64,000 nt of DNA, taken from Trematomus loennbergii. Its lineage: Eukaryota; Chordata; Actinopteri; Perciformes; Nototheniidae. The notes below the pieces were generated by a model, which was not told the origin of the DNA, did not search any database, and worked only from the letters and a program-made list of their open reading frames with translations. Both the position numbers and the translations under genes were made by a program. Every line of letters starts with the position of its first letter. The first letter of the stretch is position 1. Below, one piece after another: positions 18,266 to 26,385 of the stretch. The stretch is from the NCBI GenBank assembly GCA_012861695.1, contig JAAOOA010000060.1:5926683-5990682 (forward strand). Direction: 5' to 3'.

Positions 18266-18735
18266 TAACGGCTACTAGCCATTAGCTATTATTCATTAGC
18301 TATTAGCTCGTAGAATTTTACATTTTAATATGGTATGACTGAGTGAATTGACTGAATGACACCCAATAAGAGCAGTCCAAATGATTATTCCTACATGTTT
18401 ATGACAGATGTGTATCTTATGCACAGCCCTTCAAATATAGTGTTACTTTTTTGTCAAATATAATCATACTTCACCGTTACTTATCCCACAGAGGGGACAT
18501 TTACAGACATTTAACTTTAATTAAGAGGCATGCATACATTTAAGATACAAAAATAAATGACAATTTATGAAACTACACATCCAGGTTGAACACAAAAGAT
18601 AGTGTAAAAGGTACCTTGGCTAATTTTCTAAATATTGTTTCTCTTCTTTCCACACAGGTCTTTTGAAGTTGATATACCCCTGTGATCTGCCATTCAATCA
18701 CCCACCCTTTTTTTAGGGTGGGTGGGCACTTTTAA
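18266..18735 (+). repeat. KDZ element left inverted repeat
   Basis: It matches the reverse complement of 25926-26385 over about 460 bp with only scattered substitutions and small indels (for example TTTAATATGGTATG against TTTAATAGGGTATG). It contains a strong splice acceptor TTCCACACAG at 18648-18657, so it probably supplies the 3' part of a leader intron to the gene downstream. An extra local palindrome CACCCACCC/GGGTGGGTG is at 18701-18726 and is absent from the right copy. Confidence 0.95.
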
Positions 18736-19617
18736 GAGCGACATTTGTTTTGTCAAACCGTCCTTTTCAGTGTGCCTTGTCCTTACCTGTGTTGCTGTCT
18801 GTGTATCTCTCTCTGTCCTCTCTCTCTCACTTTTGCATATTCTCTCTCGCTATCTGTGCTTACTCCTGTTTTGTCAATCTCTTTGTCCACTTTTGCTTTT
18901 CTGTTTTTGTATATATTACTGTTAGTCTGTCTTGGAGATATGACTCGACCGAAGTTACGGCCGTGCCCTACTTGCCAGACTCTTAATAAGGCAAGCATCA
19001 AAACGTGCACTGTCTGTTACGGGACCCTGTCAACAAAGACGAAAATCATAAAAAAGGCAGCGACCCTGGACGGCAAATGGGGGCAAGGAGTGGTTAGAAA
19101 TCGAAACGTTAACCGCATCATTGATTCTGCCCGTATTGCAGTAAGTCAAAAATGCTCATAGCTCATTAATGTCTGCTAACTGAAATTAAGCTTTATTTGT
19201 TTAACATATCAGACATATGATCAGGCTTTTCAATAAAAACACAGTCTCATTTTCATCAGTTTCTGTCATCCTGCAGGGATACTTTTTACATCTTTGACTT
19301 GATTTGAACAAATAAATATTATTTAAATAATTAACTCTAAATAAGCATTTCGGCTCCTACAATATTGATATCAGGGTTTTTAGTCAAAAGTCCAACCCCA
19401 GGTAGAAGCCATTTCTACCTATGTATTATGTTAAAGAGCAACAATAGTCAGTGTTTCCTATCAAATAATAATCCTTAGTCCTGAGTCCGGATGGCGATGG
19501 CAGGAACAGCAGAGGCACCTCTTCCCTTACATCTTTATGACCATTGGTCTTATAAAATGCAAGATCAAATGTTGTTGTTTCTATGGTTTATCGAAATCAA
19601 CAATTTGTCGCTAAATA

Positions 19618-21205
19618 TCTAACATCATATTCAACTAGAGAATGCAATTCCTGAAGAATGCTTTATGCTGAAAAGTAATGTGTAAGAAGAAAGTGAAGAA
19701 TTTAGATTGAAATGATACATGAACACTGGGGGCTTGAATGTGTGATGAGAGAAGAAAAGAAAGTAAAAAGGCTTGGAAAAGCAGCAGAATATTTGAACTG
19801 CAAACCTTTGAACGGCATTTGAAGAAATCTCAAAACTGTCCCGTAGATGTCTTCAGGGCTGGACTGTTAGTACACATGTGAAGTTTTAGCACTTTTTGAA
19901 CATTTTCATAGGAGTTATAGCGACATCGTCTTTTATGGCGAGGGATGCGTTTCCATGGAAACGGCATATGGTGAGATCTCAGATTTGGCGTAGAGCTGTT
20001 GAGGCATGGACCGGTGATATACAAGTGAAGATTGGGGGACGATCGGACCGTGTCCATTGGACTTACAGCGACATCGTGCTTCATGGCGAGTGGTCTGTCG
20101 ATATGACAACGGCATTTGAAGAAATCTCAAAACAGTCCCGTAGATGTCTTCACGGCTGGACTGTTAGCAACATGTGAAGTTTTAGCACTTTTTGAACAGA
20201 GAGAGAGAGAGAGTGTGTGTGTGTGTGAGTATGAAATGAACAGTTAGAACTGACTGCTGTCAGTTGGAGTGATGACATCTTCGTGTTCCATTGCACAGGT
20301 GTTCATCGTTGAGCTAACGAGGTGCCTAGACTTCAAAGGTTTCATTGTTCTGAATGAGAGATGAACCTCTTACATGTGAACGTTTTGTGGAAGAACGATA
20401 ACAGATATCTGTGAAATTTCAAATCGTGAAGCATGTCAAGGAAGTTGAGTATCTGAAGTGTAATTTTTGTGTACTTTCGGGTTAATAATGTGGCCTTTTT
20501 GGCAGTTTAAGAAAGGTGTGCGGCTGCTGCTGTGAGGAAATATCTGCCTGAAATTACAATGGGCTTTAATGGAGACATGTTGAAAGTTTTTGTCACTTCA
20601 TGCCCTCAAGAGGCATTTTGTTTAATTATTTTGCTTAATTATTTGTCATTTTTCAAGCTACGAGATGTTTTCCTACGTTTATCATGAAAATTATGTCTCA
20701 AGAATGTAGGGTTTGGAATTATGGCAGTTTAAAAAAATATATGAAGGCACATTTCAAGATTTCTTACCCTCTAGCTGTGACATCACGCACTCTAGTTAAT
20801 GTTAAAATCTGAAGAAAACCTCTTTAACAAGGTCTGAACAAGTTTATATCTCTAAAAGTAAGAATCAGATTTAAAAGTTGTGTTACACGAATAATGTCAG
20901 AAAGATGTGTAACATTTTAAAGTTGGAATGAGGTTTCTGAGTGAAAGTATGAATGAACAGTTTAGCAGTTGAAGTCGCATGAAGATTTGTTGAAGTCTGA
21001 AGAATTTCTCCATTGACTTCAATGTTAAAAATTTGATGAAAATTATGAATTATGGCTGTATCTCTGGAATTATGAAGTTATGATGATAAAAGTAATAGCA
21101 GTCGATTCCCGACCGAACTGAACGTTTTGATGTTTGAACGGACAAATAATTGGACGGATATAATAATAATAATTTTGTCCGTAGCATAACATATAGTTGG
21201 AATGC
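19618..21205. mobile_element. Non-autonomous DNA element in intron of the companion gene
   Basis: The left edge (ATCATATTCAACTAGAGAATG) and right edge (the complement of CAGCATTCCAACTATATG) are roughly inverted. The body carries a dispersed fish motif (CGACATCGTGCTTCATGGCG). A partial inverted copy lies at 31600-32150. A ~90-bp block (19811-19902) is repeated directly at 20108-20199 with few changes, marking an internal duplication. No coding sequence is seen. Confidence 0.55.
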
Positions 21206-21228
21206 TGTATCAGCATTAGCTGTCCTTG

Positions 21229-25179: not shown

Positions 25180-25330
25180 ATAATAATTTCAATTTCTATA
25201 GCGCCTTTCACCCAAGGACGCTTTGTGATGTGAAGATTTATCAAACCAGACAATGAGGTACATTGCTAAAACAGTACTGAGGGACTGACTAATATTGAGT
25301 ATAGACAAGATTACAAATAAAATAAAAGGA
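25180..25330 (-). repeat. LINE 3'-tail fragment
   Basis: (ATA)n followed by TTCAATTTCTATAGCGCC and TTTCACCCAAGG is the reverse of a common fish L2/CR1 LINE 3' end. It sits in an intron of the KDZ transposase gene. Confidence 0.5.
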
Positions 25331-25925
25331 AATATGAATCAAAGGGGCATTGTTTGAAATGTCTAATGACCAATGATCTCCAAAAGTTCAATAATGAAAT
25401 TCATTCACAATGGGAAAGGGCTTCGTCAGCAACAAAAGTTGTTGGAGGTAATGGCTGGAAGAATCCGGCTGTTATGGCATCTCTGTTGTGAAGTACATGT
25501 CTAGTGTGCATGCTAACATCACATTCAGCACAGAGGAAAGGGCGTGGTCGGCAGTCACGACAACGGACAGCAGCTGGATTGCTCCCACACTGTTGGCAGA
25601 TACGGTTTGCAACATTTTCTTGTGCTGCTGTGCTGTTAATCAGACGGGGGCCTCTCAGTCTTCCACCTCTCTAAAAAGAGACTTTTTTCTTGTGCCCCAG
25701 TCTAAAGAAGCCATAAGAGGAGCTGTTGGAGCTGATGTTTCTAGCTCATCACCTGAGGCATCGCTTAGTGATAGCTGGAGATCTTGTAGAAAACACTCTG
25801 TTAAAAGATAAGGAATGAAACAAAAAAATATTGTTTCATACTACATCAACGTTTACTGTATGGAGTAGCTGTGGCTTGGAAATATTTAACAGCTATGTTT
25901 ATAATTATGTTAAATTGTTAAAAGG

Positions 25926-26385
25926 TTAAAAGTGCCTTTCGTTGGGTGATTGAATGGCAGATCACAGGGGTATATCAACTTCAAAAGACCTGTGTGGAAA
26001 GAAGAGAAACAATATTTAGAAAATTAGCCAAGGTACCTTTTACACTATCACTATTTTGTGTTCAACCTGGATGTGTAGTTTCATAAATTGTCATTTATTT
26101 TTGTATCTTAAATGTATGCATGCCTCTTAATTAAAGTTAAATGTCTGTAAATGTCCCCTCTGTGGGATAAGTAAAGGTAAAGTATGATTATATTTGACAA
26201 ATAAAAGTAACACTATTTGAAGGGCTGTGCATAAGATACACATCTGTCATAAACATGTAGGAATAATCATTTGGACTGCTCTTATTGGGTGTCATTCAGT
26301 CAATTCACTCAGTCATACCCTATTAAAATGTAAAATTCTACGAGCTAATAGCTAATGAATAATAGCTAATGGCTAGTAGCCGTTA
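25926..26385 (-). repeat. KDZ element right inverted repeat
   Basis: It is the inverted partner of 18266-18735. On the minus strand it contains the same acceptor TTCCACACAG (its AG at 25990-25991), feeding the transposase gene. It ends abruptly at 26385 next to LINE sequence. Confidence 0.95.

Follow-up and report, generated by a model that had tools for sequence, protein, structure and literature searches.

What do two facing copies of one repeat do in front of two genes that converge on each other? The question is raised by a 64,000-nucleotide stretch of the genome of the fish Trematomus loennbergii (contig JAAOOA010000060.1, forward-strand positions 5,926,683 to 5,990,682; this whole stretch is called the window below, and positions are counted from its first letter), in which an earlier note had placed a KDZ (Kyakuja-Dileera-Zisupton) transposon at 18266-26385, with ~465-bp inverted repeats that give each gene its own copy of one leader splice acceptor and might be twin promoters. 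Our answer, which we consider probable, is that the window holds a decayed copy of a two-gene KDZ transposon, and that in its relatives a long terminal inverted repeat (TIR), with the same splice-site motifs and 5' untranslated region (5'UTR) before either converging gene, is likely to serve as promoter and leader for the transposase and for a zinc-ribbon-like partner.

The repeats are real and inverted. Their arms in the window occupy 18261-18704 and 25943-26390, with ungapped blocks of 337 nt (96% identity) and 107 nt (100%), and a gapped alignment of 18266-18704 with 26385-25943 is 97.5% identical over 445 columns, so that the length is about 445 bp rather than ~465 bp. Direct reading confirmed the inward-facing acceptor TTCCACACAG on both arms, its AG lying at 18656-18657 on the plus strand and at 25990-25991 on the minus strand. 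A search of the same genome with the arm gave 33 matches, and ten stretches were fetched around the better ones. The match runs outward past 18266, to 18048 or beyond, in eight of the ten (this was not seen in L016 and L018), and an end sequence CAACACAYYCTCACTCCC, with at most three mismatches, is present in eight of the ten (it is not in L013 or L015); in the copy C399 this end lies ~1.1 kb outside the arm. The TIR is longer than the arm as first described, which covers just its inner part, and the true ends of the element lie outside 18266-26385, the limits that it had been given. Two copies have both ends in hand, and both show CA..TG ends and exact 7-bp target duplications: C60b (C60:16.1 Mb), whose ends are 14.4 kb apart and flanked on each side by ACTAGAA (8 bp should the first C of that end belong to the target), and C82, a 16.3 kb copy of a sister family, flanked on each side by AATTAAC and with one extra A at its left end.

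The element belongs to the KDZ superfamily, as the earlier note had recognised from the minus-strand gene and its cysteine clusters. When the minus-strand exons of the window are joined, the KDZ family PF18758 is matched over positions 3-217 of 217 (Pfam, E = 2.2e-34), and the match to the CxC3 family PF18804 (E = 6.3e-15) shows that a CxC-type cysteine cluster is present before the transposase domain. Taken singly, the exons match CxC3 PF18804 at 2e-12, KDZ PF18758 at 1.1e-10 and a B-box finger at 1.5e-6, the last being above the cut-off as a single exon and just under it in the joined protein. PF18758 is likewise matched by the spliced gene model of C82, with CxC3 at 6e-13, and the KDZ and CxC families are listed among the Pfam matches of the C82 protein up to E = 1, with no domain of the Mutator-like element (MULE) type among them. 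KDZ transposases have catalytic D, D and E motifs. A transposase of the sister family matches a Trematomus bernacchii protein at 100% over 64% of its length. A putative processed copy at C627 with a 1751-amino acid open frame was set aside, since the 1.1 kb upstream of it consists of N and the frame has no value as evidence.

The plus-strand gene encodes a different protein, again in keeping with the earlier note. The protein begins MTRPKLRPCPTCQ. It contains a CPxC/CxxC cluster and a middle part that is conserved, as well as AEQPQSSS repeats together with a basic end; no Pfam family was found above the cut-off, all zinc-ribbon matches being sub-threshold. Six proteins match it, from two Dissostichus species, Champsocephalus gunnari and Solea senegalensis, and an AlphaFold model made with six sequences has a mean predicted local distance difference test score (pLDDT) of 39.5. 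The record P0002 (Dissostichus eleginoides) gives the product of this second gene the name 'Heterochromatin protein 1', for which we found no support here.

How much of a gene start does the repeat carry? Nine arms were aligned and fourteen scored, arm pieces in L016 and L018 and short matches lying outside the scored set. The acceptor motif (TTCCACACAG or CTCTCAACAG) occurs in 12 of the 14 arms, the donor motif GTAAG in nine, and the exact 5'UTR block GGCACTTTTAA in 11. The start of the KDZ protein (MSDSE/D) follows seven arms and the ATG of the second gene five; the other two arms are truncated. Twelve arms therefore lead to a start codon, and none of the fourteen is an arm unlinked to these genes, the case that the earlier note had named as damaging to its idea. 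The acceptor is missing from the second arm of C754, which is truncated, and from the C82 arm on the second-gene side, where another acceptor stands one base before the ATG; the donor is missing from the right arm of the window, both arms of C754, the left arm of C60b, and C26. The donor motif lies in the part of the repeat outside the arm first described; in C399 the donor, acceptor and ATG are 899, 1466 and 1709 bp from the end, respectively. In the window's lineage the shared sequence covers the acceptor and most of the 5'UTR and stops ~40-70 bp short of either gene's ATG, so that a separate promoter would have little space. In C82 an AAG/GTAAG donor motif is present in each arm even though the arms are no longer alike there, and the UTR block is found on the KDZ side only. 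The claim that each gene has its own copy of the leader acceptor thus holds as a matter of sequence, and in relatives it extends to the donor motif and most of the 5'UTR; the right arm of the window has the acceptor and no donor side.

Arms of the two sides intermix when compared with gaps excluded: the left arm of the window and the C28 arm, both on the second-gene side, are 98-99% like those of C1 and C399 on the KDZ side, and the C754 arm (second-gene side) is nearest to that of C363 (KDZ side). Such mixing is as expected from arm-to-arm conversion; C60b shows the opposite. Among the 27 of the 30 second-gene loci that were used, the UTR block precedes the gene in six of seven loci of the MTRPK type and in none of 20 of the MTKPK type. 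Since the block also stands on the KDZ side of C82, we infer that the repeat grew inward in the MTRPK lineage.

Promoter-type motifs in the repeat hint at a promoter role, although they are suggestive only. An M4-type motif (ACTAYRNNNCCCR) lies outside the donor in six of the 14 arms, namely window-left, C28, C1, C399 and both arms of C82. The motif CCGGAAG, which we take to be of the ETS type, is present in the M4-bearing arms and in the C363 and C5 stretches, and is not present in C60b; M4-like sites were found in none of the C60b, C363 and C5 stretches (60 shuffles each for both motifs; several of these stretches extend beyond the repeat). M4 is described as a promoter motif in the excerpt of PMC5006282 that we consulted.

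With these parts in hand, the copy in the window can be read as follows:

16358-16399, plus strand: stray 42-bp piece of more outward C399 repeat sequence (100% over 42 bp, E = 7e-16)
17601-18874, plus strand: preserved part of the left TIR (matches the C399 (L011) repeat, positions 411-1668, at 91.1%)
17790-17802, minus strand: predicted M4-type promoter motif (ACTAYRNNNCCCR)
17998-18004, plus strand: predicted ETS-type motif CCGGAAG (motif scan)
18081-18657, plus strand: predicted leader intron, from the donor motif AACAAG/GTAAGAGC at 18081 to the acceptor TTCCACACAG ending at 18657 (sequence motifs)
18266-18704, plus strand: left arm of the earlier note, the inner part of the TIR (arm alignments)
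18658-19140, plus strand: second gene, predicted 5'UTR (18725-18735 being the GGCACTTTTAA block) and first coding exon, 67 amino acids from the ATG at 18940 (arm comparison, tblastn)
19639-21511, no strand: insertion in the first coding intron of the second gene (C28 and C754 are without this stretch; in L009 and L012, 19638 and 21512 are joined to within 12 bp)
21577-22105, plus strand: later exons of the second gene, the second coding exon being frameshifted (tblastn with P0001 and P0002)
22291-22293, no strand: junction between the two genes, where ~2.4 kb of C60b is missing (comparison with C60b)
22438-25798, minus strand: remnant of the KDZ transposase, with frameshifts, that retains CxC3 and a B-box-like finger (residues 126-763 of the C82 model matched; Pfam)
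25919-25943, no strand: right-arm junction, where ~0.8 kb of C60b is missing, including the KDZ start-codon exon (comparison with C60b)
25943-26385, minus strand: right arm, the inner part of the TIR, with acceptor AG at 25990-25991 and without the donor motif (arm alignments, arm scoring)

The copy is decayed: it has lost both termini, the right-arm donor, the start exons of the transposase and both reading frames. The left TIR lacks the outermost ~410 bp including the terminus (the terminus of C399 being position 17-18 of the compared C399 stretch), and neither an element terminus nor a target duplication was found for the window copy, whose left repeat is recognisable from 17601 and whose right repeat stops at 26385-26390. 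The matches to the C82 model span residues 126-763 only, with the start and last exons of the KDZ gene not found in the window, and tblastn gave no match for the later parts of P0002 in the window's second gene. Because the right arm has no donor side and the KDZ gene no start-codon exon, only the left arm could be a leader in this copy.

Several smaller features lie in or near the copy. A 57-bp inverted repeat (81%; 21300-21356 and 21460-21516) is found near the inner end of the 19639-21511 insertion, and a 121-bp repeat (93%), perhaps a short interspersed nuclear element by its appearance, occurs at 22933-23053 inside the KDZ gene and at 28854-28974 downstream. Adjoining the cut right arm is an open reading frame (26442-27035, plus strand) with a zinc-knuckle-like CxxCxxxGHxxxxC stretch, which may be derived from a retroelement. 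Short stretches in many of the fetched loci match a tandem repeat at 31762-32011, and a CAACACATTCTCACTCCCAACTCG end of a related element lies at 5200-5743 on the minus strand, extending leftwards from 5743; no second such end was found in the window.

Do the two genes travel together? The 30 second-gene matches in the genome represent 29 places, and 91 of the 133 KDZ matches were used in the count. A convergent KDZ match is present within 25 kb at 19 of the 29 places (one of the 19 has an additional KDZ match in another orientation), in line with the earlier note, in which the converging genes belong to one element. Of 2508 candidate TIRs in the sister family, 40 were scored and all are 99-100% identical, which suggests very recent movement of that family. 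The scored TIRs form 12 inward pairs of 15-21 kb with exactly one KDZ match each, and a second-gene match, obtained with a diverged query, is inside three of the 12 (70 KDZ and 22 second-gene matches were used).

The ratio of non-synonymous to synonymous substitution rates (Ka/Ks) in the first exons of the second gene is 0.17, 0.19 and 0.19 for the window against three diverged copies (C23, C127 and C60b), and 0.8-3 within lineages. These values point to an excess of silent changes between lineages and fit a gene that is kept while the element multiplies and decays after insertion. Ratios between the MTRPK and MTKPK types were not used, as silent sites are saturated and the frames were not gap-aligned. 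In 15 of the 20 MTKPK loci the first exon has an in-frame stop; in these copies (L028-L050) the stops lie in or beside an A-rich stretch of the exon. With so many stops, the second protein may act in trans or may be dispensable.

The alternative that survives best, an unlikely one in our judgement, is that the second gene is cargo carried between the two ends, of use to itself or to its host and without a role in transposition. It would account for a protein that matches no Pfam function, and for the MTKPK stops in a genome where the sister-family TIRs are still 99-100% alike. It accords poorly with the low Ka/Ks values and with an arrangement that is convergent with KDZ at all 19 linked places, in two diverged lineages.

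If the repeat is a shared leader, transcription of both genes would start in it and its leader intron would be spliced out, gene conversion would keep the arms alike, and the partner protein may help by binding element DNA; in the MTRPK lineage the repeat would have spread inward over the transposase leader, replacing the second gene's own. A number of observations weigh against this proposal. No copy in hand has both leader arms complete and near-identical: the right arm of the window and the second arm of C754 are truncated, the left arm of C60b is without the donor motif, and the inner parts of the long, diverged C60b arms are only 72-76% alike. The repeat of C82 is 466 bp long at 99.4% and stops before the donors; not every member of the group therefore has a shared leader. 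Eight of the 14 arms have no M4 motif, 10 of the 29 second-gene places have no KDZ match within 25 kb among the matches used, and the MTKPK stops count here as well. Finally, the acceptor stretch is not conserved in excess of the arm around it (five of 32 columns variable, against 64 of 442), and conservation of the acceptor was therefore dropped as proof of its use.

This last result, together with the MTKPK stops and the C82 second gene, which has its own acceptor one base before the ATG and has no UTR block, is what would be expected if these were ordinary long TIRs, kept alike by transposase binding and copying during repair, with the acceptor and UTR as passengers and the second gene having its own promoter or the leader being used by the KDZ side only. 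We regard that explanation as improbable, a shade more so than cargo; it does not readily explain why the GTAAG donor motif is in both C82 arms where these are no longer alike, nor the sharing, in the window's lineage, of everything up to ~40-70 bp before either ATG. The lack of ends and target duplication in the window copy would fit arms that stem from a chance duplication in place or from an error of assembly and are not transposon ends; this is very improbable indeed, given that other contigs carry the same arms, order and genes and that two copies have termini and 7-bp duplications.

A wider form of the shared-leader proposal is that each TIR of this vertebrate KDZ transposon has become a full unit for starting a gene, with promoter, non-coding exon, spliced intron, acceptor and 5'UTR, one unit driving the transposase and the other, from the opposite end, a zinc-ribbon partner specific to the lineage. 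The repeat would have spread inward over the transposase leader and taken the place of the partner gene's own, and the site of cutting would also be the switch for both genes. To this we would give a little short of an even chance. Wherever such ends inserted, they would bring a promoter and a splice donor with them and could start transcripts in neighbouring host genes. The presence in the same genome of a young sister family with near-identical repeats makes the twin-leader model testable with existing RNA data.

How does the element compare with known systems? It shares with other KDZ elements a full-length PF18758 domain, the CxC3 cluster, many exons and a short target duplication, and differs from them in its repeat, which ranges from 466 bp (C82) to more than 1 kb (C399) and reaches the 5'UTRs of both genes in the window's lineage. 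Some fungal KDZ elements carry a TET/JBP gene, according to the excerpt of PMC12730594 consulted, whereas here the companion is a converging zinc-ribbon-like gene. The same excerpt describes fungal Kyakuja elements as having 7-bp target duplications, CA..TG ends and no TIRs; C82 and C60b resemble them in ends and duplication, and their TIRs are long (466 bp at 99.4% in the former, long diverged arms in the latter). It gives 8-bp target duplications for Zisupton, as against 7 bp in C82 and 7 (or 8) bp in C60b. With the Zisupton of fish the element has in common the KDZ domain, the fish host and a multi-exon gene. Among the titles and abstracts listed for the literature on KDZ, Zisupton and Kyakuja, the original 2012 Zisupton paper not being covered, we found none that reports TIR promoters in KDZ elements.

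The closest parallel in layout is MuDR of maize (Mutator), whose two genes converge and which likewise has long TIRs before a transposase gene and a second gene. The transposases are unrelated, as the C82 protein has no MULE-type domain. According to the excerpt of PMC8224964 consulted, the MuDR TIRs are the promoters of mudrA and mudrB, so the twin-promoter design, which the earlier note called unusual, is not unprecedented: another superfamily already works in this way. The repeat described here, for which the promoter role is a prediction, additionally carries splice-site motifs and a 5'UTR. If our reading is correct, a MuDR-like layout, in which an element's ends also switch on its two genes, arose in vertebrates in a superfamily unrelated to that of MuDR.

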